A stretch of DNA of 39,067 bases from contig CAIUPP010000076.1 in NCBI GenBank assembly GCA_903901045.1, forward strand, positions 1 through 39,067. Reading direction: 5' to 3'. The DNA is from an uncultured Planctomycetota bacterium. GTDB taxonomy: Bacteria; Planctomycetota; Brocadiia; CAIUPP01. The notes beneath the pieces were generated by a model, which saw only the letters and a program-made list of their open reading frames with translations, had not been told where the DNA came from and did no database searches. Both the position numbers and the translations under genes were made by a program. Shown in pieces: positions 8,975-32,392 of the stretch (its first letter is position 1; each line of letters starts with the position of its first letter).

Positions 8975-11854
8975 TTATCTACGATCTGACGCACGGTAGG
9001 CGCGGCGGTGTTCGTCGGCCGTACGGATGGCCTCGGCTGCTTCATCGTGCAGGCCGAGTGAGCGCAACACACTGGCATAGTGGCGGTAGTTCTGGTCCAA
9101 CAACCCGTGGAGGAAAACCATCTCCGGATGTTTCTCCAGCAGGATAGCCAGTGCCTTAGCGTTCTCCTCGAACATGTCGTGCGCTTCGGACGGCTTGGAC
9201 TGCGTCGCGAGTATGTTGGCCAACGTCAGGCGGAACATCCCCTCCCACACCTGATAGTAGGGCACGTCGGGAAACTGCGCAATCAGGGTGGTTTGTATCT
9301 GGAGCGCGTCTCGTGCGCATGTTTGCGCTTCTGCCAGTCGCTGCATGTTCAGGAGCAGCGTGGAAATTTGATGTTCAATGTGGGCGCGTGACGCCCAGTA
9401 ACTTGGAATGTTGGGGTACCGCGTAACGAGCGTATCCGAAACTCCCAGCGCCTTTCGCAACCGCTTCTCCGCGTCGGCGAAACCTTCGGACGTGACGTGA
9501 CGGATGTCCACTGCGGCATAGGCTTCGCACAGGTCGAAGCGGTACTCGGATATATCGGGGTAGTTCTGGACCAGGCCTTCCAGAAGCGTGATGGCATGGT
9601 CCATGTTCTCCATCGTCTTGCTGGGGTTGCGCGCACCAAACGTCGTCTGCCAGTCACGATAGCAGAGGGCCAGCATGTGAGGGTAATTCGGTGCGTCGGG
9701 ATATCGCGTCGTTAGGTCCTGCAGAATTTCTATGGCGCTCCTCAGATACTGTTTCTGTTGGGCATCGCTGTCACCTGGGCCTTCCAGTTCGGCCTGGCCC
9801 GATGGCGGCAATGGTTCAGACAGGGGCCCGTCTGGGGGCACGGGAAGAGGCGGACCGCGATATTCCCTCGGGCGTCCCTGGCCTTCCTGAAGTGGCGGTA
9901 GCGGCTCGCTAGGACGCAACCTGCCAGCGGGGCTTTGCGGCTCAGCACCTGGCGCTGGCGAGGGACGCGTACCCAGGAAGTAGTACGTCCGCGCCAGTTC
10001 GAAGCGGGCTTCGGGCGCCGCCGAGGCATTGGATTCCGATGATTTCAGAAGATCGAGCGCCGTGAGGTGCGCGGAGCGCTCTTCGGCAAAGCGACCGCTG
10101 ATGCGACAAAGGCCGCCGAGGTCATTTTGAATTCGTGCGATCTCGATCCCAAGGCTCAAGTCTTCCGGCGAATGCTTCGCCATGGTCTCGTAAATGGCGA
10201 TGGCGCGCCGATAGGCTGCTTCTGCCTCTTTGTACTGTCCGAGTTGGCAGCGAATGTCACCCACGCGTCGGCTCGCGTCCGCCGTTTTAAGGCGCAGGAG
10301 GGTCGTGTCGTCCGTCTGCGCAGCGAGCTTGCCATAGAAGATAAGCAGGTCTTCAAGAAGGGCCGCCGTTTCCCGACTCAACGGGGGCGGTGCCGTGAGG
10401 TTGATGACGTTGCTCTCATCGCCCCCGATTCCGAGATCGGGCAGGGCAATCGCTCGGCTTGGCGCAAGGCGGTCGAAGACGCGGTCAAGCGTGGCTGTCG
10501 CCAACTCCACACTTGCCTCTGCTTCCCTGCGCTGTCGCGCCTCGCCTTGGAGGGCGCGTGTGGTGCGGACATAGCCGGCGCTCGAAACTACGGCCAACAG
10601 AACCACGAGCAGGACGGCGACGCCGGTGAGTGAGGCGACCGCAGGGTTCCGGCGGCACCATCGCCACGCGCGTTCGAGCGATGAGGTCCGCCGCGCGAGA
10701 AGCGGGCGGTCCTCGATGAACCGCTGAAGGTCCTCAGCCATGGCCGCCGCCGATGCATAGCGATGGCCCGGATCGCGCGCGGTTGCCGTGAGGACAATCG
10801 TTTCCAGGTCGCGCGGGACATGGGGATTGAGATTGCGGGGCCGGGGCGCTTCTCCTTCGATAATGCGGCGCATAAGCGCGCTCCGGTCGGACTCGCGAAA
10901 GGCCGGTTGCAGCGTCAGCAGTTCGTAGAGCGTCAACCCGAGGCTGTAGATGTCACTGCGCGCGTCGGTCTTACCCTCGAACTGCTCCGGTGCCATGTAG
11001 CGGAGTGTTCCGGTGATGCCGCCGCTCTGTGTCAGATCCTGCGACGACTGGAGCGCCTTGGCCAGGCCGAAATCGGTCACTTGGACCGCACCTTGCTCAT
11101 CAACGAGGAGGTTACCGGGCTTGATGTCTCGGTGCAGCGTCCCCTGAGCATGCGCGTAGGCGAGTGCGTCGGCCACTTGGCGTCCAATGAGCGCGACGCC
11201 CCGCCAATATGCCGGATCGTCGTCTGACCGGATGTCCCCTGTCGCAGCGCCGAAGAGTTTCAGGCAGAGCGCATCGAAATCAACCGCAGTGCCGTTTGCG
11301 CCGCCGGGGAGGGCCGCAGGGGAGGTCCTCGCCAGCCGCCCGATCAGGGCGTCAAGGCCCGGCCCCTGAATGAGCTGCATGACGTAGTAATGGAAGCCGT
11401 CGTTTTCGCCGGCGCCGTATATCTGCACGATGTTCGTGTGGTGGAGGGCGGCGGCCAACCTGGCCTCGCGGTCAAAGCGTTCCAGTTGTCTGGGATCCAG
11501 CAGGGACTGTCTTGGCAAGACCTTGATGGCGACGCGGCGGTGAAGGGATTCCTGTTCGGCCTCGAAAACGATCCCCATTCCGCCGCGCCCTATCTCGCGG
11601 AGAATGCGGTAGTCGCCCAACCGCTCCAACTTGACGCCTCCGAGCGAAACGCGGCCGCCATGGGTCCGTTCTTGCATGGACTTGAGGCGTTCCATTGAGG
11701 CGATGGTAGGGAACAGTTCGCGGATTTCGTCGGCCAGGTCGGGGTGTTTGGCCACGTACTCCGAAACAGAAGGATTCTCGCCGCGCCGCTGGCGTTCCAT
11801 GAAGTCCTCGGCGAGGGCTTCCAGCGGATGGCGTTGCGGATCAACTGCGGACAT
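8975..11854 (-). CDS. Membrane-bound Ser/Thr protein kinase with TPR-like sensor domain
   Basis: Protein of 959 aa. A short segment (PSVSEYVAKHPDLADEI), typical of planctomycete-type kinases, precedes a Hanks-type kinase domain: IGRGGMG P-loop (near residue 88), VAIKV lysine, HRDIKPGNLL catalytic loop (near 240) and DFG (near 260). One membrane helix follows (VAVLLVVLLAVV, about residues 405-428), so the C-terminal half is probably outside the membrane. That half has TPR-like helical repeats, interrupted by a proline-rich, low-complexity stretch at about residues 625-690. The ATG at 11,854 has GGGGAAG and overlaps the sigma-factor gene by 14 bp, indicating co-translation. The kinase may control the ECF factor, as inferred for such pairs. 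Confidence 0.9.
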   Translation of the reverse strand: MSAVDPQRHPLEALAEDFMERQRRGENPSVSEYVAKHPDLADEIRELFPTIASMERLKSMQERTHGGRVSLGGVKLERLGDYRILREIGRGGMGIVFEAEQESLHRRVAIKVLPRQSLLDPRQLERFDREARLAAALHHTNIVQIYGAGENDGFHYYVMQLIQGPGLDALIGRLARTSPAALPGGANGTAVDFDALCLKLFGAATGDIRSDDDPAYWRGVALIGRQVADALAYAHAQGTLHRDIKPGNLLVDEQGAVQVTDFGLAKALQSSQDLTQSGGITGTLRYMAPEQFEGKTDARSDIYSLGLTLYELLTLQPAFRESDRSALMRRIIEGEAPRPRNLNPHVPRDLETIVLTATARDPGHRYASAAAMAEDLQRFIEDRPLLARRTSSLERAWRWCRRNPAVASLTGVAVLLVVLLAVVSSAGYVRTTRALQGEARQRREAEASVELATATLDRVFDRLAPSRAIALPDLGIGGDESNVINLTAPPPLSRETAALLEDLLIFYGKLAAQTDDTTLLRLKTADASRRVGDIRCQLGQYKEAEAAYRRAIAIYETMAKHSPEDLSLGIEIARIQNDLGGLCRISGRFAEERSAHLTALDLLKSSESNASAAPEARFELARTYYFLGTRPSPAPGAEPQSPAGRLRPSEPLPPLQEGQGRPREYRGPPLPVPPDGPLSEPLPPSGQAELEGPGDSDAQQKQYLRSAIEILQDLTTRYPDAPNYPHMLALCYRDWQTTFGARNPSKTMENMDHAITLLEGLVQNYPDISEYRFDLCEAYAAVDIRHVTSEGFADAEKRLRKALGVSDTLVTRYPNIPSYWASRAHIEHQISTLLLNMQRLAEAQTCARDALQIQTTLIAQFPDVPYYQVWEGMFRLTLANILATQSKPSEAHDMFEENAKALAILLEKHPEMVFLHGLLDQNYRHYASVLRSLGLHDEAAEAIRTADEHRRAYRASDRR

Positions 11855-12494
11855 GATCTTCCCCGTCAAAGAAACCCGGAACCTGTGCAAGGATTGCCTT
11901 CAGCCGTCGCAACGCCCGGACGTACCGTATGCTGGCGGCCTTTTGTTCAATGCCCAATTCATGAGCCACTTCGCTGTTGCTCAACTCCTCGAAATGGCGC
12001 AGTGCGAGGACTTCGCGGTCAACAGGGTCCATCTCCTCCAGCGCCTGTTCGACCCGGTTCATGAGGTCCACGCGAACGGCCGCTGAACTGGGAGAAGTGA
12101 TATCGCCAACCAGGCGTGAGACCATTGAAATGGACGTAGCCTCCGGGTACCCCCCGGTATGAAGGGCCCCCTCGCGTCTTGCGTCGCGCATCTGGGCGCC
12201 CATATGATGACGGTGGATGTCTACCAGCGTCTGCCTCACAATCGCGCGCAACCAAATGAACGGTGTCGGATAGGCCGAGGCACCGTAGTGTTGAAGCCGC
12301 TGGACCGCCGCCAGATAAGCCTCCTGAAGCACGTCGTCCGGGTCCACGCGGTCCCTGAGCCGACTGTGCAGCCTGAAGTTCACAGTCCGCCACAGGCGCT
12401 CTCTATTGTCCGAGAATACCTGCGCCAGAGACTGTTCGTCGAGAACTGTTACTCGAGGCGCCGGATGCTCACCCTCGTGCGGGCCTTCAACCAT
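11841..12494 (-). CDS. ECF sigma-70 family factor paired with the kinase
   Basis: Protein of about 217 aa. Sigma region 2 is seen as VDPDDVLQEAYLAAVQRL, and region 4 as MDPVDREVLALRHFEELSNSEVAHELGI followed by ASIRYVRALRRLK. The PDDVLQE and FEELSN patterns are those of ECF factors that occur with Ser/Thr kinases in Planctomycetes-like bacteria. I prefer the ATG at 12,494 (GGGAAG upstream); an in-frame ATG at 12,563 would add 23 residues. It ends inside the start of the kinase gene. It faces away from the exported-protein operon at 12,692, with 197 bp between them, so it could direct that operon's transcription; this is an inference. Confidence 0.88.
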   Translation of the reverse strand: MVEGPHEGEHPAPRVTVLDEQSLAQVFSDNRERLWRTVNFRLHSRLRDRVDPDDVLQEAYLAAVQRLQHYGASAYPTPFIWLRAIVRQTLVDIHRHHMGAQMRDARREGALHTGGYPEATSISMVSRLVGDITSPSSAAVRVDLMNRVEQALEEMDPVDREVLALRHFEELSNSEVAHELGIEQKAASIRYVRALRRLKAILAQVPGFFDGEDHVRS

Positions 12495-12691
12495 TCGATC
12501 TTCCCATTCTATAAACGCAGAGCGCCGAAGGCATTCTACAACAGTTGGACGCCAATCCGCCATGCCTGGCCGCGCCTCCGAGAATTCCGCGAAAGAGATG
12601 GTTATGCCTGTAGAAAGACCCTGCGGCTGCCCGTTTACATCATTGGAGCCTCAGATGCCGCACTGTGTTGGATGGAAAAAGGAGAAACTCA

Positions 12692-14392
12692 ATGACCCGA
12701 TGGATTGTCGGTCTGGCTGGAATACTCCTGGCAGCGTGCAGCACCGGCGCGGCGGGGCAGGAGAAGATGCCCGGCTTCGCGCTGATTCCGGCAGGCAAGT
12801 TCGAAATGGGGGACCATCTCGGATTTGTGGACCCCAAACACGGCGGCGACGAGACGCCGATTCACACGGTGCGGCTCGACGCGTTTTACATGGGCATCAA
12901 CGACGTCACCACGCAGCAGTATTGCGACTTCCTCAATGCAGCGCTGGCGGAACATCTGATCGAGGTTAAAGAGGGCGGTGTCTATTTCGTAGGTGGAAAG
13001 GATCTACTTTGCGAGACGCGCGAGATGTCACGCTACAGCCGAATTGGCTGGGATGGGAAAACCTTCGTTGTTCTCGACAAGAAGGATCACCACCCGGTCA
13101 TCTGCATCCGGTGGCCCGGTGCCGCTGCTTACTGCAACTGGATGAGCGCGCAGAACAAACTGCCGCTCTGCTACAATACCGCCACATGGGACTGCAATTT
13201 CAACAAGAGTGGTTTTCGCCTTCCGACTGAGGCGGAATGGGAATTCGCCGCTCGCGGCGGCTTGCAGAATCCCTACCGCAATTTTCCATGGGGCGATGAA
13301 GCCGACGCCACAAGAGCCAATTGGCCTGAATCCAAGAACCCATACCGCACAGGGCCGGAACCTTGGACAACCCCGGTCGGATTCTTCGATGGCACACTGC
13401 ATCGCAAGGCTGACTTCGGCTGGCCGGGCGCTCAGGAAACCTTTCAAGCCGCCAACGGCGCCAACGGCTATGGACTCTATGACATGGCGGGCAACGTCTG
13501 GCAGTTCGTCAATGACTGGTATGACCGTGATTACTACGCCTACAGCCCTGCCGACAATCCGCCAGGGCCGGCTCAAGGCAGCCTGATGCCCAACGGCAAG
13601 CCGTATCGCGGGATGCGCGGCGGCAACTGGTATAATGGAGAGAACGGCCACAGTCGGGTCTCCAACCGCAACCCGTCCTACTATCGCGGGCCGCAAGACC
13701 CGGACCATCCATATTATCATCTCGGTTTCCGCGTCGTTCTGCCGGTCAACGCCGAGAACCGTCCGATTGTGAAACCCACGCCCGTGCAGAAGGTGGAGCG
13801 GCGCGACACCGCGCCCGGTGGTCGGCCTGCCAATGCAGCCAATCGCCCGGCGCTGGCGGATGCGACACAACCAGTCCGCAATGGAACTTTTATCCTCCGC
13901 AGTTCCGCTGTGACGGACGGCGGAACGCTTCCGACGGAGTTCACCGGCGACGGGGCTAGCGCTACGCTGCCGCTGGAGTGGAGTGGCGCCCCGGAAGGAA
14001 CCAAGAATTTCGCGCTCATCATGCATCATGTGGCGCCTGACCAGACCAAGTGGTATTGGGTCCTCTACAACATACCGGCGAACGTCCAAAGCCTGCCCAA
14101 GAATGTGAAAGGGATTGGGACGTTGGGGAATAACAGTATCAACGATCGCGTTGGCTATGCGCCGCCGCATTCCAAGGGACCGGGCCCCAAAACTTACATC
14201 TGCACGGTATATGCCTTGTCCGCTGCTCCGCAACTCAACGTCGCTCCGGAAAAGGTCAGCCGCGATGTCCTGCTGGCGGCCATGAAGGACAATATTCTTG
14301 CTACCGCGGAATTGCGCGTGACTTACTCACGACCCGAGGGAAGCACTGACGCGGCGGACGAGCGCCGTCCCGGCCCAACCCCAAGACCCTAA
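12692..14392 (+). CDS. Lipoprotein: FGE/SUMF1-like domain fused to a YbhB-type PEBP domain
   Basis: Protein of 566 aa with a lipoprotein signal (LAGILLAACS, Cys near residue 15). The first part is a formylglycine-generating-enzyme-like domain: LIPAGKFEMGD, then GFRLPTEAEWEFAARGG, NGYGLYDMAGNVWQFVNDWY, MRGGNWYNG and YYHLGFRVV. The paired catalytic cysteines expected after RGGSW are absent (WYNGENGHSRVSNR), so classical FGE activity is unlikely. The second part (about residues 400-550) is a phosphatidylethanolamine-binding-protein domain of the YbhB/YbcL kind: FILRSSAV, PLEWSGAPEGTKNFALIM, WVLYNIP and GPGPKTYICTVYAL. AAGGAG lies 7 nt before the ATG. First gene of the exported operon; the fusion is unusual. 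Confidence 0.88.
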   Translation: MTRWIVGLAGILLAACSTGAAGQEKMPGFALIPAGKFEMGDHLGFVDPKHGGDETPIHTVRLDAFYMGINDVTTQQYCDFLNAALAEHLIEVKEGGVYFVGGKDLLCETREMSRYSRIGWDGKTFVVLDKKDHHPVICIRWPGAAAYCNWMSAQNKLPLCYNTATWDCNFNKSGFRLPTEAEWEFAARGGLQNPYRNFPWGDEADATRANWPESKNPYRTGPEPWTTPVGFFDGTLHRKADFGWPGAQETFQAANGANGYGLYDMAGNVWQFVNDWYDRDYYAYSPADNPPGPAQGSLMPNGKPYRGMRGGNWYNGENGHSRVSNRNPSYYRGPQDPDHPYYHLGFRVVLPVNAENRPIVKPTPVQKVERRDTAPGGRPANAANRPALADATQPVRNGTFILRSSAVTDGGTLPTEFTGDGASATLPLEWSGAPEGTKNFALIMHHVAPDQTKWYWVLYNIPANVQSLPKNVKGIGTLGNNSINDRVGYAPPHSKGPGPKTYICTVYALSAAPQLNVAPEKVSRDVLLAAMKDNILATAELRVTYSRPEGSTDAADERRPGPTPRP

Positions 14393-14401
14393 GGAACGAC
14401 T

Positions 14402-16096
14402 ATGACGCAACATTACGAAACGCGTCTTCCTTCACGAAAGGCTCGAATCATGGACCTCAAGACTGTTGTCTGCTTCCTCGGGGCGCTTGCCGTGGGCGCG
14501 GCCGTAACGTCACCGGCCGTGGGACAAGAAGTAAGCAAGCCGCCACAGGATCAACTCCTCGCGCAACGATCTGATCGCGGGCCAGCTGGAGGCCGGAACG
14601 AACCCGGAGGAGGAGGAGGCGGCGGTCGGGTCGCTATGCCGGAGAACAAGACGCCGACGTCTCCCAATCCGGGGCAGACCGTCGGGCTGTTCCTCAATAC
14701 CACCAAAGCATGCGCAGGCTATACGCTGTTCGCACCGAAGCACAACACCGTCACTTACCTGATGGATAACGAGGGACGAGTTGTGCATCACTGGAAGAGC
14801 GCCTACGAGCCTGGGCAATCCGCCTATCTTCTGCCGAACGGCCATCTGCTGCGCGCCGCCATGGTTAGGGTGCAGGGCGGCACCGGCGGCGGGGAAGGTG
14901 GGCGCATCGAAGAATTCGACTGGGAAGGCAACCTTGTCTGGGAATTCGACCACGCTACCCGCGATTACCAGTTGCATCATGACATCAAACCGCTGCCGAA
15001 CGGCCACGTTCTCGCGCTGATGGTCGAGCGCAAGTCCCGCGAGGAGGCAGTTGCGGCCGGTTTTGCCGCCGGTCTCTTGAGAGAGGACTATCTAGTGCCC
15101 GATGCCGTGGTGGAGATAGAACCCATTCTGCCTAAAGGCGGACGCATCGTCTGGGAGTGGCACGTCTGGGACCACCTGGTCCAGGACTTAGACCGCACGA
15201 AGCCGAACTACGGCGACGTCGCCGCGCATCCGGAGTTGATTGACGTGGCCTGCAACGGCCGCGCCACGCCGGCGTTCTGGAACCACATGAACTCCATCTC
15301 CTACAACGCGACTCTCGATCAGATCATGCTCAGTGTCCGCGGCTGTAACGAAATCTGGATTCTGGACCACAGCACCACAACCAAGGAAGCCGCTGGCCAC
15401 ACTGGCGGCAAACAGGGCAAAGGCGGCGACCTCATATATAGATGGGGCAACCCGGTGGCCTACCGGCGCGGAACCGCCGCCGACCGGCAGTTGTTTGACC
15501 AGCACGACGCGGAATGGATTCCCGACGGCAGTCCTGGCGCAGGTAACATCACGATTTTCAATAACGGCTACGACCGAGGTTGGTCTAGTATCGAGGAGAT
15601 TGTTCCGCCGCTGGATGCTAACGGTCACTACATCCTTGCGACCGGCAAGACCTATGGACCTGAGAAGCCAGTCTGGCACTATGAAGCAAAGAACCGTACC
15701 GACTTCTTCTCTTCGGAAATCTCCGGCGCGCATCGGCTGCCCAACGGCAATACACTCATTTGCGCCGGCGTCGTCGGTCACCTGTTCGAAGTTACTCCCG
15801 CCGGTGAGATGGTCTGGCAATACGTCAACCCGATGGTGCGCGGCGGCATTCTTGCCCAGGGCGAGTTGCCAGGCAAAGATATGCGCGGGCACCTGTGGAA
15901 CGCCGTCTTCAAGGCCCACCGTTATGCGCCGGATTATCCCGGTTTGGCTGGGCGCGACCTCGTGCCGCAAGGCGTCATTGAGTTGCCCGCCGCTCAGAAG
16001 GGCAAGACCGGTCTCGACCAAGTGAACGAGCAACCTCGCGACGAGCGCGCCCGCCCCGGTCGGGGTGACAGGCCGGACCGTCCACCTCGCAATTAG
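14402..16096 (+). CDS. Exported arylsulfotransferase-like beta-propeller protein (1)
   Basis: Protein of 564 aa. A signal peptide is evident (VVCFLGALAVGAAV, cleavage after VGQ likely), then a Gly/Arg-rich linker. The rest matches the arylsulfate sulfotransferase (ASST) family: repeated blade motifs such as YLLPNGHLL, LVWEFDH, LHHDIKPLPNGHVLAL, WNHMNSISYN, QHDAEWIPDG, ITIFNNGYDR, HRLPNGNTLICAG and MVWQYVNP. Conserved His residues (HHD, WNH, QHD) sit where ASST enzymes place their catalytic residues, but substrate and activity are unknown. Two starts are possible: 14,402 (AAGGA at 6 nt) or 14,450 (MDLKTV). It starts 9 bp after the FGE-like gene. Confidence 0.82.
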   Translation: MTQHYETRLPSRKARIMDLKTVVCFLGALAVGAAVTSPAVGQEVSKPPQDQLLAQRSDRGPAGGRNEPGGGGGGGRVAMPENKTPTSPNPGQTVGLFLNTTKACAGYTLFAPKHNTVTYLMDNEGRVVHHWKSAYEPGQSAYLLPNGHLLRAAMVRVQGGTGGGEGGRIEEFDWEGNLVWEFDHATRDYQLHHDIKPLPNGHVLALMVERKSREEAVAAGFAAGLLREDYLVPDAVVEIEPILPKGGRIVWEWHVWDHLVQDLDRTKPNYGDVAAHPELIDVACNGRATPAFWNHMNSISYNATLDQIMLSVRGCNEIWILDHSTTTKEAAGHTGGKQGKGGDLIYRWGNPVAYRRGTAADRQLFDQHDAEWIPDGSPGAGNITIFNNGYDRGWSSIEEIVPPLDANGHYILATGKTYGPEKPVWHYEAKNRTDFFSSEISGAHRLPNGNTLICAGVVGHLFEVTPAGEMVWQYVNPMVRGGILAQGELPGKDMRGHLWNAVFKAHRYAPDYPGLAGRDLVPQGVIELPAAQKGKTGLDQVNEQPRDERARPGRGDRPDRPPRN

Positions 16097-16109
16097 GGAG
16101 AACCATTTC

Positions 16110-17702
16110 ATGAAGCGTGCATTGGTGATGCTCGTCTTGCTCGCCACGTCGGCTTACGCCTATGAACGGCTGCAAGGACCGACCGAACTGCTCTTTTGTG
16201 ACAAGGAAAGAGCCTTCAACGGCTACACCCTCTTCGGCGTCGGCAGTCGAACCTATCTGCTCGACATGGACGGCCGCGTCGTTCATGCTTGGCCGATCGG
16301 GACGAATCCACACCTGTTAGAGAACGGAGACATTCTCGACGCCTCGAAGGACGACCCCAGCGGTTTCCAGGGATTCAAGGAGGTGGACTGGGACGGCAAG
16401 ACGGTGTGGGAATACACGGAGAAGCGCCAGGGCTACGCCCCACATCATGATTGGGCGCGCATCTTCAACAAGAAACTCAAAGCGCCTACCACACTCTACA
16501 TCGCAAACAAGTCCATTACCCAGGACCAGGCCATAGCCGCCGGCGCAGACCCGCAAAAAGGCCCCTATCGAGACGGCGAAATGGATGCCATCGTCGAGGT
16601 GGACATGCAGGGGAACGTCGTGTGGGAATGGTGTTTCTTCGACCACGTCGTGCAGGATGTTGCCCCGGCGAAGCCGAACTACGTGGGCCAAGGCAAGACC
16701 GTTGCGGATTATCCCGGCCGTATCAACCTCAACATGCCCGGCAAGCCGCTCAAGCGCGACTGGTTGCACTGCAATTCGCTGGACTATAGCGCCGAGTCCG
16801 GCCATCTTGTCATCAATTCGGTGCAGGGGGAGCTCTACGTCATTGACCATGACGGCACATTCGTCGCCGGCGACCCGAAGGCCAGTATCGCGAAAGCGGC
16901 CAGTGCCGCCGGGGATTTTCTCTATCGCTTTGGCGATCCCGCGCGCTACGCCCAGGGTGACCCACCGCGCGTGCTGGAGAACTGGGACTCGGCGACCTCC
17001 GGCCACAAACAGATGGGTGGCAGCCATGACGTGCAGTGGATTCGGCCGGGACTGCCCGGTGCCGGACATATCATGGTCTTCAATAACGGCCAGTATCTCT
17101 TTCAACGGACGCCGCAGTCCTCCGTCCTTGAAATCAACCCCTTCCTTGATGCGAACGGACGCGACGCCGGCAAGTATGTCAACCCTCCTGATGCAGGTTA
17201 CCGGCGCGAGACTTACGACAAAGACACCCACAACGAGCCGCGTCAGATATCGAAGCAAGTCGTTTGGAGCTTCCGATCCGTCAACAGTCACGGCTTTTTC
17301 AGCCACATCGGATCGAGCGCTCAGCGCCTGCCCAACGGCAACACGTTCATCTGCTCCGACACCGAGGGCCATTTCTTCGAGGTAACCGCTGACGGGAAGC
17401 TCGTGTGGGAATACATCAACCCCGTCACGCGCGACGGAGCGGTGAAGACGCTCGGAGACGCTCTGCCGATGGCGAACTCCGCGTTCCGAGCCTACCGCTA
17501 CGCCGCTGACAATCCGGCGTTCGAGGGACGCGAGTTGACGCCGCAGGGCACAATCACTGAACGCGCGGCGCAAGGTCTTGATCCCCAACCGAGACGCCGG
17601 CCTGAGGGAGATCGTCCTCAAGGGAAGGGCGAGGGCAAACCGCAAGGCGGCGAAGGTGACAGGCCAGAGAACGGCCAGAGCCGCCCAAGACCCCAACAAT
17701 GA
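16110..17702 (+). CDS. Exported arylsulfotransferase-like beta-propeller protein (2)
   Basis: Protein of 530 aa, paralogue of the preceding gene. The signal peptide MKRALVMLVLLATSAYA is clean. The blade motifs correspond one for one: HLLENGDIL, VDWDGKTVWEY, APHHDWARI, NVVWEWCFFDHVVQD, LHCNSLDYSAESGHLVI, GSHDVQWIRPG, HIMVFNNGQ, QRLPNGNTFICSD and LVWEYINPV. It ends in a charged, low-complexity tail rich in Gly, Pro, Arg and Gln. The start is fixed by AGGGAG 9 nt upstream. It follows paralogue 1 by 13 bp, so the pair likely arose by tandem duplication and works together. Confidence 0.82.
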   Translation: MKRALVMLVLLATSAYAYERLQGPTELLFCDKERAFNGYTLFGVGSRTYLLDMDGRVVHAWPIGTNPHLLENGDILDASKDDPSGFQGFKEVDWDGKTVWEYTEKRQGYAPHHDWARIFNKKLKAPTTLYIANKSITQDQAIAAGADPQKGPYRDGEMDAIVEVDMQGNVVWEWCFFDHVVQDVAPAKPNYVGQGKTVADYPGRINLNMPGKPLKRDWLHCNSLDYSAESGHLVINSVQGELYVIDHDGTFVAGDPKASIAKAASAAGDFLYRFGDPARYAQGDPPRVLENWDSATSGHKQMGGSHDVQWIRPGLPGAGHIMVFNNGQYLFQRTPQSSVLEINPFLDANGRDAGKYVNPPDAGYRRETYDKDTHNEPRQISKQVVWSFRSVNSHGFFSHIGSSAQRLPNGNTFICSDTEGHFFEVTADGKLVWEYINPVTRDGAVKTLGDALPMANSAFRAYRYAADNPAFEGRELTPQGTITERAAQGLDPQPRRRPEGDRPQGKGEGKPQGGEGDRPENGQSRPRPQQ

Positions 17703-17715
17703 GGCGTGGAGGAGC

Positions 17716-19212
17716 ATGATGATCCCGGCAAGAACCACTCGGTGCACCGCAGCACTCGCCGCCATTCTCCTTTCCACCGCCGCGTTCACAGCCCATGCGC
17801 AGGACCGCGCGTCACGCGGCGCCGCCGGGCCGGCATCGAACCTCTCATGCTTCCTGGGCCGCCCCACCGACCGGTCAATTGCCCTGAGCGTCCTCGCCGC
17901 CAGTGAGCTGACAGCCTGGGCCGAGTATGGCGTCAATCCGGGAACGTATACGGAGAAGACGGATGTCCGTGCAGTCCAGCCGAATGTCCCGTGCGAATTC
18001 GAGATCACCGCACTAACGCCCAATACGCGCTATTATTACCGCCTGCTCATTCGGACCCCCGGTAAGAATGATTTCACGCCCGAACCGGAGGCCACATTTC
18101 ACACGCAGCGCGCGCCGGGCAGCACGTTCACCTTCGCCCTTCAGGGCGATTCGCACCCGGAACGCGACGGCAAGATGTTCAGCCCCGAGCTCTACTGGCT
18201 GACGATGCGCAATGCGGCAAAGGACCCGCCGGATTTCTATCTGACACTCGGCGACGATTTCAGCATTGAGCGCCTCATCAGCCGGAAAGCGCTCAGCCAG
18301 GCGAATGTGGACCAGGTCTACGCCTATCAGCGCTCATTCCTCGGTGTGGTCGGACGCTCCTCGCCACTTTTCCTGGTCAACGGCAACCACGAACAGGCGG
18401 CCCGGTACCTGCTCGACGACACAGCGGACAACGCCGCCGTCCTGGCCGGACTGGCGCGGACGTGCCTTTACCCTCTTCCCGCCCCCGACGCCTTCTACAC
18501 GGGAGACGCGGAGGAAGTGAAGCATGTGGGGCTGTTGCGCGACTATTACGCATGGACCTGGGGCGATGCGCTCTTCGTCGTGATCGATCCCTACTGGCAT
18601 TCCGCGGTACCCGTGGATGATGAAGCTGGCGGCAGACAGCGTGATAAGAACGGCAATACGGATGGCGGCAAGAAACGTGATCTTTGGGAGGTCACGCTGG
18701 GGGAGACTCAATACCGATGGTTCACCCGGACTCTCACCGAGAGCAAGGCGCGGTGGAAGTTCGTCTTCTGCCATCACGTGCTGGGCACTGGCCGGGGCGG
18801 CATTGAGCGGGCCGGCCTGTACGAATGGGGTGGAAAGAATGAGAGGGGCGTGTCGATGTTTGCGGAGAAGCGTCCCGGTTGGGAGCTTCCGATCCACCAA
18901 CTCATGGTGAAGACCGGCGTCACGATCTTCTTCCAAGGACACGACCACCTATACGCGCGCCAGGAACTCGACGGGATCGTCTACCAGTCGTGCCCAAATC
19001 CGGCCGATGACACATATCAGGCGTTCAACCGCGATGCTTACCGCTCCGGTGATGTCCTGCCGAACTCCGGCCACCTGCGCGTGACTGTGTCGCCAGAGAA
19101 AGTGACGGTTGACTACGTGCGCTCGTGGCTGCCGAAGGACGAGAACACCCAGCACAAAAATAACGAGGTTTCATACTCCTACACGATCCCGGCACAGGGA
19201 AAGACGAAATAG
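17716..19212 (+). CDS. Exported purple-acid-phosphatase-like metallophosphoesterase (1)
   Basis: Protein of 498 aa with a signal peptide (TAALAAILLSTAAFTAHAQ). An N-terminal fibronectin-like domain (LGRPTDRSIALSVL, then LTPNTRYYYRLLI) precedes the phosphoesterase domain. All metal motifs are present: GDSH, LGDD, GNHE, CHH and GHDH. This is the layout of bacterial PhoD/purple-acid-phosphatase-like enzymes, which cleave phosphomonoesters or diesters outside the cytoplasm with a two-metal centre. GGAGG stands 3 nt before the ATG at 17,716 and 6 nt before the next ATG at 17,719, so the latter may be the true start. It follows the beta-propeller gene by 13 bp. Confidence 0.87.
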   Translation: MMIPARTTRCTAALAAILLSTAAFTAHAQDRASRGAAGPASNLSCFLGRPTDRSIALSVLAASELTAWAEYGVNPGTYTEKTDVRAVQPNVPCEFEITALTPNTRYYYRLLIRTPGKNDFTPEPEATFHTQRAPGSTFTFALQGDSHPERDGKMFSPELYWLTMRNAAKDPPDFYLTLGDDFSIERLISRKALSQANVDQVYAYQRSFLGVVGRSSPLFLVNGNHEQAARYLLDDTADNAAVLAGLARTCLYPLPAPDAFYTGDAEEVKHVGLLRDYYAWTWGDALFVVIDPYWHSAVPVDDEAGGRQRDKNGNTDGGKKRDLWEVTLGETQYRWFTRTLTESKARWKFVFCHHVLGTGRGGIERAGLYEWGGKNERGVSMFAEKRPGWELPIHQLMVKTGVTIFFQGHDHLYARQELDGIVYQSCPNPADDTYQAFNRDAYRSGDVLPNSGHLRVTVSPEKVTVDYVRSWLPKDENTQHKNNEVSYSYTIPAQGKTK

Positions 19213-19300
19213 AACCCAGACGGATCGTCATCGCTGGGGCGCTATTTGTTCCAAGAACCCGTCACAAGCGCGGATTTTCCCAGAATCCCTGTAGACAAGA

Positions 19301-19340
19301 GCCGTTCCACCACGTTGATATCAGTAGAGGATGGAACGGC
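19301..19340. repeat. 9-bp perfect inverted repeat in the gap before the PKD gene
   Basis: GCCGTTCCA (19,301-19,309) and TGGAACGGC (19,332-19,340) are exact complements separated by 22 nt. They lie in the 164-bp gap between the first phosphoesterase and the PKD/LTxxQ gene, 37 bp before its ATG. No T-tract follows, so a terminator is unlikely; an mRNA hairpin controlling the downstream genes or a protein-binding site is possible. Confidence 0.4.
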
Positions 19341-19376
19341 GAAGGTGAGTGATCTCTTGAAGAAGGAGTCAATCCC

Positions 19377-21764
19377 ATGAAACGCAAGGCTTGGCTCGTG
19401 TTGGTGTGCGGTGTGTTGGTACTGGCTGCCGGCGTCGCACTCGGCGCGGGACCCACAGCAGCATTCAACTTCACGCCCGCCTCTCCCATTGCCGGGCAGG
19501 CCGTGGAGTTCACCGACACCTCGACCGGGAATCCCACGACCTGGTCATGGACCTTCGGCGACGGCGCGACGAGCGTGCTCCAGAACCCAGTCCACGCCTA
19601 CTCGACCGCAGGCACGTTCACGGTCACCCTCACGGCCGGCAACGCAGGGGGGAGCAACAGTGCCAACCAGAATCTCACCGTCAGAACGAACATCCCAGCC
19701 TTCACCATGGCCCAGACTATTTCCGACGGGGCGCAACGCACAACCCTGGCCTTTTCGGGCCTCGCCATAATGACCGGAAACCTCGAAGCGCAGTCCTTCT
19801 TTCCGCCGGGCAAGGTGGCTGACTATACCGGCTTCCAGTACTTGCGCGACAATGACCCAGACAACATGGGCCACAACACCAGCTTTCTGACTCGGGTTGC
19901 CAACAATGTCATTTATGTCCTGAACGACGACCAGTTCGCTCAACTCAAGACGCTTGCCGTTAGCCAACGGGATCAGATCAATCTTTATGGCTACAAGCGC
20001 TTCCCATTGATGAAGGCTTACCGACGCCTCCTCGATGGCGACGTTCCCGCCGGTTCTCCAGGCCTGAATCTCAACGCCGTCAAGCAGGCATCCCGGGAGC
20101 TGTACCTGATAGACGGCCAAATCAGCTTCGACCGCGCCCTGCTCTACGCAAATGTCCTCAACTCCATGGATTCCGCCCAGAAGGCCTACCTGGACTCCAT
20201 GAAGGGCAAGGGGTGGAAGTCCTGGCCCGACATCACAAACGCTCAGATAGATAGCAAGATGAAAGGGCTGCCCCAAGGGACAGCGGTGGCCGTGATGACC
20301 TATGCCGGCGACCTGTTCAGCTGGTACGCCGGTTCGGTGGATGCCGATGTCTACTTCTGTCCGGAACGCCATGGCACCTACTACGGCGGGTTTTACATCA
20401 AGGACGCGCCCGCCATCGGTCATGAAGGATACAGCATTGACGAGCAGCTCACCGCCACCGCCGGGTCCGCCCTCTGCGACAGTTCCAAGGGATACGTCAC
20501 CCAGGCTCAGGCCACGGTCATGTCAAGCCTGGTGGCCACTCAGAAGAACAATCTCTACGCGGGCGCGTCCAACATTGTCGCCACGCGGACGCAAATCGAC
20601 ACGCTGTTGCGCAGCCTCCTGATCTCCACCGCCTCGGGCGATACCGTGAAGGCCCAAGTGCTCACCCTATCGGGCGCCTACGGCGACTTGGACGGCGAGA
20701 ACAACTACAACTACGCCACCGTCTTCGCCCAAGTCTACAAGACGTTGACCAACGCCCAGAAGACCGCGCTTATGGACCTCAGAACGTCCATCATGTCCGG
20801 GACCTATGCGGACGGGACCCCGTTCGACTATACCGTCTGCACCACGCCTTTCCTCTATTCAAGCCCGATCACGGACCAGAGCGTCCTCACGCCTTATATA
20901 GCCAACACCGACTATCTTTTCCTCGAGGGAACCACCACGACGACTACGCTGTCGCCGCCGACTACTACCAGCACGACAACGACTTCGACGACCACGTTGC
21001 CGCCCGCAACTACAACCAGCACAACGACGACTCATGCAACCACCACGACCACTCATGCGACGACAACCACCTCAGCCTCAAGCACTACGTCAACGACTGT
21101 CACAACGTCGACGTCCAGCACCACTACTACTACTATCCCCGGGCGTATCGCAGTGCTGTATCCATCTGACTCCGGAATCACCCTCGAACGCGGGAAGACG
21201 TATATTACTCAGTGGACAACCGTCGGCCTGCCCGCGAAGACCAAGGTGAAGGTTGAGCTCGTCAACGGCGGGAGCGAAACGTGGGTTCTCTCCGCCGACA
21301 CGACCAACCTCTGGATAAGATGGACCGTTGGCAAGAGCATCAAGGGTGCGGATATGTATCCGGATGGGGACGACTATCGGATTCGAGTCAGCGCACTCAA
21401 TGGCAGCGACTCGGATGAGAGCGACAGCGACTTCGCCATCGGCAGCGTCAGCTCGCTGACCGTGAGCGGACCAGCCACCGTTACAGGCGGTAGTGCGCCG
21501 GTACAATACAGCTGCACGGCTCACTACGACTTCGGCGACGACCGGGCCGTTACGAACGAAGTCAAGTGGAAACTCCTCGTCCCCAGTTCCAAGCCCATTG
21601 TAGCCTGGCAGAACAGCAGTGCCGGGAGGATGCGCGCCGATGGGATGCTCATCACAAAGGAAGCGACCTCAGACCAACTCTGCCGAATCCTGGCAACTTA
21701 CGACAAGGGCACGGCGGCGGTTGCCGGCTGGCAGGATGTGACTATCGGTAGCGCAGCACCGTAG
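19377..21764 (+). CDS. Exported PKD / LTxxQ-helical / mucin-linker / Kre9-like multidomain protein
   Basis: Protein of 795 aa. Signal peptide to about residue 23; a PKD domain (24-105) with FTDTSTGNPTTWSWTFGDG; a helical core (about 106-515) homologous to the next gene; a Thr/Ser-rich mucin-like linker (519-587); a module like fungal Kre9/KNH domains (GKTYITQWTT...YRIRVSALNG, about 590-685); and a final Ig-like part. The core carries LTxxQ-like motifs (LNDDQFAQL, MDSAQKAYL, VTQAQ, LTNAQKTAL), and motifs shared with its paralogue: PPGKV, GFQYxRD, GHNxxFLxRVA and CPERHGTY. I do not recognise the core family and assign no enzyme function. The architecture suggests a surface protein binding polymer or cell wall. 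Confidence 0.8.
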   Translation: MKRKAWLVLVCGVLVLAAGVALGAGPTAAFNFTPASPIAGQAVEFTDTSTGNPTTWSWTFGDGATSVLQNPVHAYSTAGTFTVTLTAGNAGGSNSANQNLTVRTNIPAFTMAQTISDGAQRTTLAFSGLAIMTGNLEAQSFFPPGKVADYTGFQYLRDNDPDNMGHNTSFLTRVANNVIYVLNDDQFAQLKTLAVSQRDQINLYGYKRFPLMKAYRRLLDGDVPAGSPGLNLNAVKQASRELYLIDGQISFDRALLYANVLNSMDSAQKAYLDSMKGKGWKSWPDITNAQIDSKMKGLPQGTAVAVMTYAGDLFSWYAGSVDADVYFCPERHGTYYGGFYIKDAPAIGHEGYSIDEQLTATAGSALCDSSKGYVTQAQATVMSSLVATQKNNLYAGASNIVATRTQIDTLLRSLLISTASGDTVKAQVLTLSGAYGDLDGENNYNYATVFAQVYKTLTNAQKTALMDLRTSIMSGTYADGTPFDYTVCTTPFLYSSPITDQSVLTPYIANTDYLFLEGTTTTTTLSPPTTTSTTTTSTTTLPPATTTSTTTTHATTTTTHATTTTSASSTTSTTVTTSTSSTTTTTIPGRIAVLYPSDSGITLERGKTYITQWTTVGLPAKTKVKVELVNGGSETWVLSADTTNLWIRWTVGKSIKGADMYPDGDDYRIRVSALNGSDSDESDSDFAIGSVSSLTVSGPATVTGGSAPVQYSCTAHYDFGDDRAVTNEVKWKLLVPSSKPIVAWQNSSAGRMRADGMLITKEATSDQLCRILATYDKGTAAVAGWQDVTIGSAAP
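20931..21137 (+). repeat. Thr/Ser-codon low-complexity tract (mucin-like linker)
   Basis: About 200 bp of degenerate ACN/AGC/TCA-type codons, with some Pro, His and Ala, encode an extended O-glycosylation-like linker. The codons vary at the third base, so the tract is kept at protein level and is not a simple slipping microsatellite. It separates the helical core from the C-terminal modules of the 795-aa protein. Confidence 0.75.
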
Positions 21765-21864
21765 GCGTGCCTTTAGGGTAAGCCTCCCGCGAGGAGACCA
21801 TGAATACGCACGGACGAAACAACGAACGCAGGCGAAAGGTTTCCAGACATGAAAGGAGATCGTC

Positions 21865-23199
21865 ATGTGGTACGGAAGCAAGCTCGGAATCGTAGTGGCC
21901 GGCGGCGCACTGACCCTGGCGCTTTGTCTTGGCGGCTTCGAAGTCGCCTCCGCCCAGCCGCGCGACGGGCGTCCGCCCGCCAACAACAGGCCGCCACGCG
22001 ACGGCGGACAACCCGGTGGTGCCCAGAACTATTCCATTGAGCAAGCCGTGTCGGAAGAGGCACAACTGCACACCATCGCCTTCAGCGGTCTGGCGTTCAT
22101 CACCGGTGACTACGGCGCATGCACGTTCATGCCGCCGGGCAAGGTGTGCGACTTCTTCGGCTTCCAGTACATGCGCGACATTGATGCAGCCGGTGCGGGG
22201 CACAATCCGAAGTTCCTCGACCGCGTTGCTGGAAACGTCCTGTTCAACCTGACCGACGCGCAACGCGCCACGTTTGAGAAAGCCGCGCGACAGGAGGCGC
22301 TGGACGTGCGCACGCTCGCGGAGAAACGCCTGCCTCTCATCAAGGCGTTCTGCCGCAAGTTGAATGGTGAGGTCCCCGCAGGCAGCCAGGGGCTGAACAA
22401 AGAGTCCGTGATCAAGTACGTGGGGGACTTCTTCGCCTTCGATGCGGAGATCAGCTACCGGCGCGCGCAGCTTTTCGGGCAGGTCGCCGCCTCCTTCACC
22501 CCGGAGCAGAAGGCGTATCTGGCGAAGATGAAGTTCGGCGACTTCAATACCTGGCCGGACGTTGACATGGAACAGTACAAGCTGCCGAGGGGCACCGAGA
22601 AGATGATCAACGTGGTGTACATGACCTACGCCAGCGAGTTCTTCAGCTGGTACGCCGGGAATGTGGAGGCCGACACCTACTTCTGCCCCGAGCGCCATGG
22701 CACCTACTTCGGCGGATTCTACATGAAAGACATGCCCGCCATGGGCAAGCGCGACTATGACATCAGCACATCCGTTACCGGCGACAGCGGCAAGGCGTTC
22801 CTCGATGCCCTCACGGCCGAACAGCGCGGCAACATCACCGGGATCATCAGTCTCCAGAGCAAGGCGCTCGCGGAGATGATCACGGTTCGGCGCGGAATTT
22901 CCACGGAGTTGCGCCGATTTCTGAAGGGCGAAACAGCGGACAAGGAGAAGGTGTTGGCTCTCGGCAGACGCTATGGCGAATTGGACGGAGAAGTTTCCTA
23001 CTATTACGCCGCGGCATTTGCCAAGGTCAGCAAGACGCTGACTGCCGCCCAGCGGGCCGCTTTCATGAAATTGCGCAATCTGGAAGGCTACAAGAGCGCC
23101 CCAGCGTACATCTACTCGGACCCGGTTGAGCAAGGGATAGCGCTGCCGGACACGGACAACTTCTTCTTCCCGTCCAAGAAAGCGACGGAGACCCGGTGA
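21865..23199 (+). CDS. Exported LTxxQ-motif helical protein, paralogue of the PKD protein core
   Basis: Protein of 444 aa. A signal peptide (LGIVVAGGALTLALCLGG, cleavage near SAQ) leads into a Pro/Arg-rich segment and then the helical core. Four LTxxQ motifs are spaced along it: LTDAQRATF, FTPEQKAYL, LTAEQRGNI and LTAAQRAAF, as in Spy/CpxP-type periplasmic proteins but over a much longer chain. Strongly conserved with the 795-aa protein are FSGLA, PPGKV, GFQYMRD, GHN...FLDRVA and the block YFCPERHGTYFGGFYMKD. The Cys/His/Glu there could bind a metal or cofactor. AAAGGAG precedes the ATG. Its stop overlaps the start of the next phosphoesterase (TGATG), so they are co-translated. Family unknown to me. 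Confidence 0.8.
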   Translation: MWYGSKLGIVVAGGALTLALCLGGFEVASAQPRDGRPPANNRPPRDGGQPGGAQNYSIEQAVSEEAQLHTIAFSGLAFITGDYGACTFMPPGKVCDFFGFQYMRDIDAAGAGHNPKFLDRVAGNVLFNLTDAQRATFEKAARQEALDVRTLAEKRLPLIKAFCRKLNGEVPAGSQGLNKESVIKYVGDFFAFDAEISYRRAQLFGQVAASFTPEQKAYLAKMKFGDFNTWPDVDMEQYKLPRGTEKMINVVYMTYASEFFSWYAGNVEADTYFCPERHGTYFGGFYMKDMPAMGKRDYDISTSVTGDSGKAFLDALTAEQRGNITGIISLQSKALAEMITVRRGISTELRRFLKGETADKEKVLALGRRYGELDGEVSYYYAAAFAKVSKTLTAAQRAAFMKLRNLEGYKSAPAYIYSDPVEQGIALPDTDNFFFPSKKATETR

Positions 23200-24632
23200 T
23201 GCGATACGCCCTGCAAATCCTGGCGGCGGTCTGCGCCTTCGCGATCTGTTGCCCGTCGCCTCCGGGCGCGGCAGCGGCGGAGGCGCCAGTGCCGAAGATC
23301 GAAAAGGATCGACAGGATAAGGTGAGTGGCGCTTTTTTGACCGACATCCCCGAATACGCCGGTAACGTCATTCTGGGCCGGCCGACGGACCGCTCCGTTA
23401 CGCTCAGCGTTCTTCTCCGAAAGCCGGCGCGGGTTCGGGTAGAGTACGGACTTCGCGGCGAACCCTTGAAAGAGCGAACCGAGATTTTCGATCTGCGCGC
23501 AGGAGAGCCGCGCGAGATATTCCTCAAGGGACTGGAGGGAAACGCTGCCTATGAGTACCAGGTCCTGGATGCCGATACGGGCGCTTCACTTCTGCCTGCC
23601 ATTGAGATTGGGACATTCCGCACAGCGCGACCGGCAGGCGCCCAGTTCACCTTTACAATCATCGCCGACTCGCACCTTGACGAAAACACTACGCCAGACC
23701 TCTTCATGCGGACGCTGGCCAATGTGGCGGCTGACTCACCCGATTTCCACATTGACCTCGGCGATACGTTCATGACAGAGAAATACGTGCAGGACTTTCA
23801 TGCGGCCTATAAGCAATATCTGGCTCAGCGCTACTATTTCGGGCTTCTTCACGCCCCTCTATTCCTCGTCCTTGGCAATCACGACGGCGAACTGGGAAGG
23901 TACCTTGATGGCACGGCCGACAGTATGCCCGTCTGGGCCAATACAATGCGCAAGAAGTACTTCCCCAATCCAGTGCCCGACAGCTACTATACCGGCAACA
24001 CGACGGCGGAGAGATTCGGCGGTCAGCTTCAAGACTACTATGCATGGCAATGGGGCGATGCGTTGTTCGTCGTGCTTGATCCGTACTGGTTTACGCCGCG
24101 CCCGGGCGGCGTAACCGACAATTGGTATCGCACGCTCGGGGCGGAGCAGTATCAATGGCTCAAACGTACGCTCGAACAGAGCCATGACACATTCAAGTTC
24201 GTGTTCATCCATAACCTTGTCGGAGGCCTGGGCAAGGACGGCCGCGGTGGCTCCGAGGCGGTCCCGTTCTTCGAATGGGGAGGCAAAAACCTCGACGGCA
24301 GCGAAGGGTTCCTGCAACGTCGCCCCGGCTGGCCCGCCCCCATCCACCAACTACTCCTGCAGAATCACGTGACGATTGTCTTCCACGGGCACGACCATCT
24401 CTTCGCCAAGCAGGCCCTTGACAGCATCGCGTACCAGACGGTGCCCCAGCCTGGAGATGCTCGCGGCAACACCCGCAACGCTGCGGAATACGGTTACAAA
24501 GGCGGCGTAATCCTTGGCAGTTCAGGCCATCTGCGCGTTGCGGTGTCTGCACGCGAAGTCAAAGTGGAGTATGTCCGCGCAGATGGGTCAGTGGCACACT
24601 CATACACGATTCCAGCAAGCAGACAGCCTTGA
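23199..24632 (+). CDS. Exported purple-acid-phosphatase-like metallophosphoesterase (2)
   Basis: Protein of 477 aa, paralogue of the gene at 17,716. A signal peptide (ILAAVCAFAICCPSPPGAAAA) is followed by a fibronectin-like domain (ILGRPTDRSVTLSVL) and a phosphoesterase domain with ADSH, LGDT, GNHDG, IHN and GHDHLF. The fourth motif has Asn where paralogue 1 has a second His. The start is ATG 23,199, overlapping the previous stop by one base; a GTG at 23,196 is in frame. Last gene of the exported operon. The repeated pairing of this family with propeller or LTxxQ proteins suggests a common extracellular phosphate- or sulfate-ester substrate. Confidence 0.87.
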   Translation: MRYALQILAAVCAFAICCPSPPGAAAAEAPVPKIEKDRQDKVSGAFLTDIPEYAGNVILGRPTDRSVTLSVLLRKPARVRVEYGLRGEPLKERTEIFDLRAGEPREIFLKGLEGNAAYEYQVLDADTGASLLPAIEIGTFRTARPAGAQFTFTIIADSHLDENTTPDLFMRTLANVAADSPDFHIDLGDTFMTEKYVQDFHAAYKQYLAQRYYFGLLHAPLFLVLGNHDGELGRYLDGTADSMPVWANTMRKKYFPNPVPDSYYTGNTTAERFGGQLQDYYAWQWGDALFVVLDPYWFTPRPGGVTDNWYRTLGAEQYQWLKRTLEQSHDTFKFVFIHNLVGGLGKDGRGGSEAVPFFEWGGKNLDGSEGFLQRRPGWPAPIHQLLLQNHVTIVFHGHDHLFAKQALDSIAYQTVPQPGDARGNTRNAAEYGYKGGVILGSSGHLRVAVSAREVKVEYVRADGSVAHSYTIPASRQP

Positions 24633-24677
24633 TGATCATTGGGCGGGAGATGATTGCGTAGGGGCGTTCCGGGAGTT

Positions 24678-24696
24678 TACTACATTTTACTACAGT
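24678..24696 (+). repeat. Extra copy of the 19-bp TACTACATT direct repeat
   Basis: TACTACATTTTACTACAGT occurs here, 79 bp before the tRNA-Met half of module 2, in addition to the two inside the module (24,923-24,941 and 25,011-25,029). Module 1 has no counterpart at this position. It marks the left island's end and may be the leftover arm of another junction. Confidence 0.6.
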
Positions 24697-24713
24697 AGCC
24701 CAATACCGAAAGA

Positions 24714-24747
24714 ACACAGGGACAAGCGTAAGTGCTTGTCCCTGTGT
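24714..24747. repeat. REP-like perfect hairpin, 14-bp stem
   Basis: ACACAGGGACAAGC and GCTTGTCCCTGTGT are exact complements around a 6-nt loop. Stems of the kind CAGGGACA...TGTCCCTG resemble REP elements moved by REP-associated Y1 transposases. It lies after the last gene of the exported operon and just before att module 2. No T-run follows on the plus strand, so it is not a classical terminator, although it could protect or end the transcript. A half-copy (GCAGGGACAAGCA) appears near 39,028. Confidence 0.6.
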
Positions 24748-24756
24748 ATGATAAGA

Positions 24757-24801
24757 TGGTAGCGGGGGCGGGATTTGAACCCGCGGCCTTTGGGTTATGA
24801 G
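24757..24801 (-). pseudogene. 3' half of tRNA-Met (CAT), attachment-site remnant, copy 2
   Basis: Minus-strand sequence from CTCATAA to ACCA, as in copy 1, but with T-stem GCGGG/CCCGC in place of GCAGG/CCTGC. Both strands of the changed pair differ, so base pairing is preserved. The 5' half of the tRNA is absent. The two copies therefore probably derive from different functional tRNA-Met alleles. Confidence 0.75.
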
Positions 24802-25150
24802 GACTAAAACCCTGATTTTCGCAAGTTCTTACCCCACCGCCACTTCCGCTCTAATCGCAACTCCCGTAAGGACTTCTCATGCAACACATGCATTGCATGT
24901 TGTGCATGTTGTGCGCGAAATTTACTACATTTTACTACAGTGCCTTCTTTGAGGGCCGACCCCAACGATTGCCATTCCGACCCGTTTAATGCCCTAACTG
25001 AGGAAAAGTTTACTACATTCTACTACAGTGGTCAAACACCACATTTTTCAGTTCTGACGACCCCAAAGGTTGCTGAGTAACGAAGCCGAATCACGGCGGT
25101 TGGCTCCAGTCGCGAGTGTGCAGATGAGCGCCTTTCCATAAGTTGGCGTC
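24757..25150 (+). repeat. Att-like module, copy 2 (direct repeat of 548-943)
   Basis: This is the second copy of the module described at 548. It contains, in the same order, the tRNA-Met half, an integrase-tail-like stretch (on the minus strand EKSLRELRLERKWRWGKNLRKSGF and a stop, split here only for description), GCATGTTGT-type repeats (about 24,887-24,913) and two 19-bp TACTACATT repeats. No gene lies in it. It is followed at once by the intact type 2 DUF4143 gene. Confidence 0.7.
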
Positions 25151-25154
25151 CTTC

Positions 25155-31066: not shown

Positions 31067-31252
31067 CGGTAATACTCCTATCTCTAAGCATTCGCCGTGT
31101 TAACGGCCTTTGGCAAATGGTGTTACGGAGGAATCTACCCCTTGTCACCAGCGTTTTGCAAGTCGGCGACAGGCTTGGACCCCCATATCTCGATGCCCGG
31201 TAAGGAGCCGTTGAGCGCGAGACGAAGACCGCCGTTGTGGGAAGTTTTTGGT

Positions 31253-32308: not shown

Positions 32309-32333
32309 CGTGTCCCTTCCAAAGAAACTCTTA

Positions 32334-32392
32334 GGGGTCGGACCGTATATGTCCTACCCCACAGAGTATACTCTCCATCAGACAAAGGTCAA
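32334..32392 (-). promoter_or_regulatory. WYL gene promoter with inverted-repeat operator
   Basis: Minus-strand TTGACC (32,392-32,387), 16 nt and TATACT (32,370-32,365) form a strong promoter; the -10 lies in the palindrome AGAGTATACTCT (32,363-32,374). Just downstream, at the expected transcription start, is a 10-bp inverted repeat with one mismatch: GGGGTCGGAC (32,334-32,343) and GTCCTACCCC (32,351-32,360). It is well placed for autorepression and for control of the divergent AAA+ gene. Confidence 0.62.

Follow-up and report, generated by a model that had tools for sequence, protein, structure and literature searches.

A double-LTxxQ protein kept together with PEBP and metallophosphoesterases in many phyla: the seven-gene version of an uncultured planctomycetote

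Do seven neighbouring genes of an uncultured planctomycetote, which combine sulfotransferase-type propellers, metallophosphoesterases and LTxxQ proteins, belong to one functional unit, and what would this unit do? The window (the whole stretch of DNA analysed, 39,067 nucleotides) is the complete contig G000:C76 of a 4.77-Mb genome with a completeness of 94%. The seven genes follow one another on the + strand from 12692 to 24632 (Table 1); from gene 1 to gene 6 the intergenic gaps are 57, 13, 13, 164 and 100 bp, and genes 6 and 7 overlap by 1 bp. For gene 2 an alternative in-frame start (ATG at 14402) is possible. Ribosome-binding-type sequences lie upstream of several of the genes, and the single terminator-like site found on the + strand within 12400-25200 lies 3' of gene 7, which is no excess over shuffled sequences. 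The spacing suggests that the seven genes form an operon, although the 164- and 100-bp gaps remain. Two - strand AAA_14/DUF4143 ATPase genes (1017-2384 and 25155-26348) flank the region, and a defence-like island (26624-38912) holds an LmuA/DUF4297-like protein of 1480 aa, a WYL regulator, an IetA-like AAA ATPase, a DUF2779/Cas4-like nuclease and a GmrSD/HEC-05-like protein.

Table 1. Genes of the seven-gene locus and candidate regulators beside it
Feature	Position	Strand	Domain matches
Gene 1: fusion of an FGE/SUMF1-like domain lacking the catalytic Cys pair with YbhB/PEBP; exported (predicted)	12692..14392	+	Pfam FGE-sulfatase 1.4e-45, PBP 7.1e-22
Gene 2: ASST1, arylsulfate-sulfotransferase-type propeller; exported (predicted)	14450..16096	+	PF05935 (Arylsulfotrans) 4.3e-23
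Gene 3: ASST2, divergent propeller	16110..17702	+	PF05935 (Arylsulfotrans) 3.2e-16
Gene 4: PAP1-type metallophosphoesterase, GDSHPER subtype; exported (predicted)	17716..19212	+	Metallophos 1.4e-06, weak Pur_ac_phosph_N
Gene 5: PKD domain, CORE-B (double LTxxQ), Ser/Thr-rich linker, C-terminal domain	19377..21764	+	PKD_4 1e-15
Gene 6: CORE-A, tandem-duplicated LTxxQ family protein	21865..23199	+	LTXXQ 31.1 bits
Gene 7: PAP2-type metallophosphoesterase, ADSHLDE subtype; exported (predicted)	23199..24632	+	Metallophos 7.8e-09
ECF-type sigma factor, divergent; candidate regulator	11841..12563	-	Sigma70_r4_2 5.5e-10, Sigma70_ECF 1.8e-07
Ser/Thr protein kinase with TPRs, adjoining the sigma factor; candidate regulator	8975..11890	-	Pkinase 1.8e-41

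Each of the seven products begins with a hydrophobic stretch (best 10-residue Kyte-Doolittle mean of 2.3-3.4, against 0.75-1.85 internally), and that of gene 1 carries a lipobox-like LAAC. Three families occur as pairs of paralogues: the double-LTxxQ proteins CORE-B and CORE-A (41% identity, E 2e-97; the CORE domain of gene 5 was recognised by alignment, as Pfam gives PKD), the phosphoesterases PAP1 and PAP2 (39%, E 5e-101) and the propellers ASST1 and ASST2 (36%, E 1e-78). The first-pass annotation had thus rightly seen seven genes with export signals and three families in pairs; its gene set also stands, with the FGE-like/PEBP fusion of gene 1 missing from its title. A search of the whole source genome returned no second site for the phosphoesterase pair or the ASST pair, and one extra copy of CORE (78% identical) on contig C60. 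No phosphoesterase is found near this second copy; a PEBP reading frame and an Lcl_C protein lie upstream of CORE there (10860-14707).

We searched for relatives of CORE and examined their neighbourhoods. The search gave 107 relatives from no fewer than 14 named phyla, and the best 80 of 107 were retained; 82 loci (the window included) were examined by six-frame searches. PAP2-type phosphoesterases occur in 42 of these loci, PAP1-type in 35 and CORE-B in 21; FGE occurs in 10, ASST1 in 7 and ASST2 in 7, so that ASST/FGE genes are limited to 8-10 of the 82 and propellers are absent from about 90%. Many contigs are short. Where CORE is flanked by 4.5 kb or more of sequence on both sides (46 loci), a phosphoesterase is present in 28 and absent nearby in 18. 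Among the loci as a whole, 46 bear a phosphoesterase; it lies on the same strand as CORE in 45 of these and within 1 kb in 38. PEBP is found in about 29 of the 82 loci (19 reading frames of its own, 13 fusions to CORE, 2 to a phosphoesterase and 1 to FGE), and in L035 CORE-B, PAP2 and PAP1 share one open frame. A histidine kinase is near CORE in about 31 of 81 loci and a response regulator in about 25 of 81, the commonest small unit being histidine kinase/response regulator, CORE, PEBP and one or two phosphoesterases.

The same association is visible within the phylum. In an independent sample of 392 of its genomes CORE is rare (any match in 5, a full-length match in 4), and a strong phosphoesterase match occurs in at least 3 of the 4 genomes with full-length CORE, against 8 of 392 overall (hypergeometric P ~2e-5). 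Strong phosphoesterases exist without CORE in five sampled genomes (G387, G308, G095, G194, G264); because these genomes and the 18 loci mentioned above have one partner alone, CORE and phosphoesterase are not strictly interdependent. CORE and PEBP, with one phosphoesterase or two distinct ones, are nevertheless kept together in many phyla, partly by fusion. The module is real and conserved, and the window holds one lineage's version of it. This means that random association, the alternative to which the first-pass annotation had exposed itself, is refuted for CORE, phosphoesterase and PEBP, and that the set is upheld as a functional unit. ASST1-like genes (34 of the 392 genomes) mostly stand alone elsewhere in the phylum. 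The proposal of two repeated submodules in fixed order fails, the gene order varying among loci and the propellers being mostly absent, and the joint reading of two submodules acting on a polymer does not stand in its original wording.

A minimal version is found in Ca. Chlorohelix allophototropha, on a replicon of 375 kb, where response regulator, histidine kinase, CORE, YbhB and two metallophosphoesterases stand in a row; parAB and an IS66 transposase lie at most 12 kb away. In Clostridium magnum DSM 2767 the order is response regulator, histidine kinase, three glycosyl-transfer-like genes, CORE, PAP2, a small protein and PAP1; a PMT-like transferase adjoins CORE there and otherwise only in L080. 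The CORE-less locus L129 (G393:C6, 8221-14458) holds a phosphoesterase-like gene close to genes for an ASST-like protein and a PMT-type transferase. The CORE tree intermixes phyla beyond what vertical descent would give: even on its starred branches alone, the label must change five times or more for Verrucomicrobiota and four times or more for Planctomycetota; binning errors in metagenome-assembled genomes and paralogy can produce false mixing in such a tree. The distribution is patchy, as 1 of 58 relatives, the window's own genome, has CORE, and the Chlorohelix copy lies on a secondary replicon, which has been termed a chromid (PMC10972752). The best reading of these sequence data is that the module moves horizontally between phyla. 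A phage or viral origin was rejected, as no CORE turned up in phage records or IMG/VR. About 49 of the 80 relatives come from samples of lake water or lake sediment, a count without a base rate from which we claim no enrichment. The source lake of Chlorohelix is iron-rich, and most of its sampled neighbours are ferruginous and sulfate-poor (PMC10972752).

In the phosphoesterases the metal-ligand motifs D-x-H, GD, GNH, H and GHxH are kept in 37 PAP2-type and 33 PAP1-type alignment rows, each subtype (GDSHPER, ADSHLDE) is conserved over the loci with complete motifs, and both subtypes are found together in 22 of the 47 loci with complete motif sets. The AF2 model of PAP2 (pLDDT 94.1) has the fold of plant purple acid phosphatases (1xzw, Z 30.8, rmsd 3.5 over 354 residues; PhoD, Z 27.1), a fold which leaves the substrate unrevealed.

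ASST1 keeps, in the alignment, the equivalents of the active-site residues His252, His356, Arg374 and His436 of E. coli AssT (PMC13426309). ASST2 lacks the sulfuryl-binding Arg374 equivalent, INSVQGE replacing SVRG in the family alignment, and some homologues have lost the catalytic His. At the FGE position GGSYLCHDSYCNRYR, which holds the catalytic copper-binding Cys pair, gene 1 has GGNWYNGENGHSRVSNR, and the site is without Cys in gene 1 and in all six homologues that span it. A catalytic FGE activating a nearby sulfatase was therefore ruled out, as there is no Cys pair and the module of the window has no sulfatase. FGE and ASST share one open frame in five loci (L016, L026, L028, L031, L059), in the order ASST2-ASST2-FGE-ASST1 over 2388 residues in L026; these frames and that of L035 run from stop to stop on contigs of metagenome-assembled genomes, and the true starts may differ. 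Sulfatase-family proteins lie within or beside the module genes in six other CORE loci, all of Verrucomicrobiota (PF00884 in all five scanned, a CxPxR-type motif in L023, L045 and L057), and none of the six has ASST. A sulfatase apparently replaces ASST in other lineages; because Verrucomicrobiota are rich in sulfatases, this is no more than suggestive. The sulfate and phosphate ester chemistry proposed earlier is plausible in view of the PAP motifs, the ASST1 residues and these six loci. Lcl_C-type proteins are seen near CORE in L011, L034, L007, L060 and L084 (PF07603 confirmed in the first three) and perhaps fill the role of the FGE-like domain.

What, then, is CORE? Gene 6 passes the curated Pfam cut-off for LTXXQ (PF07813; 31.1 bits against 24.3), as does the homologue of C. 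magnum (33.5 bits). A Spy/CpxP-like unit has been duplicated within CORE: its two halves align as homologues across 148 columns (E 2.3e-16), and both show the Spy-like LTxxQ pattern. In this half-against-half alignment the N-terminal element PPGKV.DFFGFQY.RD is in register with a middle element PERHGTYFGGFY.KD; since the element by itself aligns weakly (E 0.0024), its homology depends on the joint alignment. Across 92 sequences 38 columns are invariant, among them PPGK, GHN, C-P-E, KD and YG..DG, and in 10 loci the N-terminus carries a small signature domain LT...AK.I.EAFR.AG. Compared by hhalign with the single unit of E. coli Spy, CORE gives a probability of 71-79%, and with CpxP 6-25%. The AF2 model of CORE-A (pLDDT 91.9) is all alpha. 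It has no Foldseek match in the PDB at E <= 0.001, which is no proof that the fold is new; the best VIA match (Z 4.8) is to unrelated helical bundles, and a missing match is no exclusion of the Spy/CpxP fold. A sequence search of the PDB gave no usable match.

No histidine kinase adjoins the module in the window, where the sigma factor and the Ser/Thr kinase are the candidate regulators; a similar pair directly adjoins CORE in L023, its kinase being a homologue of ours. In L014 (6470-8188 and 9773-11179) and L017 (6765-8666 and 9887-11299) the histidine kinase and the N-terminus of CORE have in common a motif C.GK ... RP of about 40 residues, a match judged by eye.

What the module does we infer from its protein families. 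It would process phosphate esters outside the cell or at its envelope: the presumably dinuclear-metal enzymes PAP1 and PAP2 would hydrolyse two different phosphoester substrates or carry out successive steps, and PEBP and CORE may bind and present a ligand or signal it to the adjacent two-component system, in the window perhaps to the kinase/sigma-factor pair. In the subset which includes the window, the ASST set could add PAPS-independent sulfuryl transfer, and the FGE-like domain without cysteines may serve as a binding or scaffold domain.

Of this conserved exported phosphoester-processing module, with ASST or sulfatase as options, we would say that the chances are evenly divided, since the 38 invariant residues of CORE would also suit an enzyme, not all long-flank loci have a phosphoesterase and few have ASST or FGE. 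If CORE were indeed an enzyme or a cofactor-binding protein, the half-motifs PPGKV.DFFGFQY.RD..GHN and YFCPERHGTYFGGFY.KD could form a new active site, and the phosphoesterases and PEBP would provide or complete its substrate. This is favoured by the invariant columns, which hold across many phyla and contain C, E, K, D, R and H, by the motif regions in register and by the lack of a close PDB fold; to our knowledge, however, no enzyme is known in the LTxxQ superfamily, and we consider it unlikely. CORE could otherwise be a sensor or chaperone like CpxP or ZraP, gating a histidine kinase in response to envelope stress or metals, with the phosphoesterases as effectors of envelope repair. The LTXXQ score, the duplicated Spy-like unit, the frequent two-component genes and the motif common to kinase and CORE all point that way, but Spy and CpxP have about 160 residues, one LTxxQ unit and no PPGK or CPE motifs, 38 invariant residues are rare for chaperones and the window lacks the adjacent histidine kinase, which makes this improbable too.

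Nutrient scavenging, in which secreted phosphatases and sulfotransferases would liberate the phosphate and sulfate of dissolved organic esters and be grouped by co-regulation only, is compatible with the enzyme types, with the many relatives from lakes and with the sulfate-poor surroundings of the Chlorohelix lake. We find it doubtful, as no recurrent transporter was noticed beside the module, the fusions and the invariant residues of CORE exceed what loose co-regulation would give, and ASST transfers sulfate and does not release it. Chance or a habit of the lineage, which would have brought unrelated exported genes side by side, gains some credit from the fairly common, mostly solitary ASST1-like genes of the phylum; it is contradicted for the core set by linkage and fusions over many phyla and survives for the ASST pair only, so that as a general explanation it is very improbable.

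Hence we retain, on an even balance of right and wrong, a regulated and horizontally moving exported module for phosphoesters with optional sulfate-ester enzymes. Going further, and leaning slightly against it, we tentatively suggest that CORE represents a new protein family whose active or ligand site is likewise new, and that CORE, PEBP and phosphoesterases make up an undescribed extracellular phospho-/sulfo-ester pathway transferred across phyla among anoxic-lake bacteria. Co-retention in at least 14 phyla, transfer and partial fusion indicate strong selection on the gene set. Its central protein is yet annotated as "hypothetical protein" in Chlorohelix, and, as the first-pass annotation had supposed, no such system is described in the literature found: no paper within our scope, outside which most subscription papers fell, joins LTXXQ with a metallophosphoesterase or an arylsulfotransferase. 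The module is testable in culture, being present in C. magnum DSM 2767 and in the Ca. Chlorohelix enrichment, and it could reveal new ways in which anoxic-freshwater bacteria handle phosphate and sulfate esters.

Finally, the components can be compared with known systems. With FGE (SUMF1, PF03781) the module shares the domain fold family; what sets it apart is the Cys pair, absent from the window gene and from every homologue that spans the site, and the fusion of its FGE-like domains to PEBP or ASST. With YbhB/YbcL (PEBP, PF01161) it shares the domain family, its own version being predicted to be exported and fused to CORE, phosphoesterase or FGE. ASST1 resembles AssT (PF05935) as an exported propeller with the His/His/Arg/His set; unlike AssT, ASST2 lacks the Arg and some loci have FGE-like fusions in open frames of up to 2388 residues. 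PAP1 and PAP2 share with purple acid phosphatases and PhoD the fold, including an N-terminal FN3-like domain, and the motifs D, GD, GNH, H and GHxH, at 13-21% identity to solved members. According to the family alignments, however, motif I of purple acid phosphatases (GDxG) is replaced by DxH (ADSH in PAP2, GDSH in PAP1), and GDxxY is without its Tyr ligand (GDTFM in PAP2, GDDFS in PAP1); they therefore probably act like other dinuclear phosphoesterases and not as classical purple acid phosphatases. CORE, for its part, is like Spy, CpxP and ZraP (PF07813) in its LTxxQ motifs, its all-alpha structure, its export and the OmpR-type two-component system often adjacent to it. Unlike Spy and CpxP, whose chains have one LTxxQ unit each and dimerise to form a cradle, it joins two homologous units and added motif elements in a single chain, and it differs from all three in its 38 invariant residues and in its linkage to phosphoesterases and PEBP.
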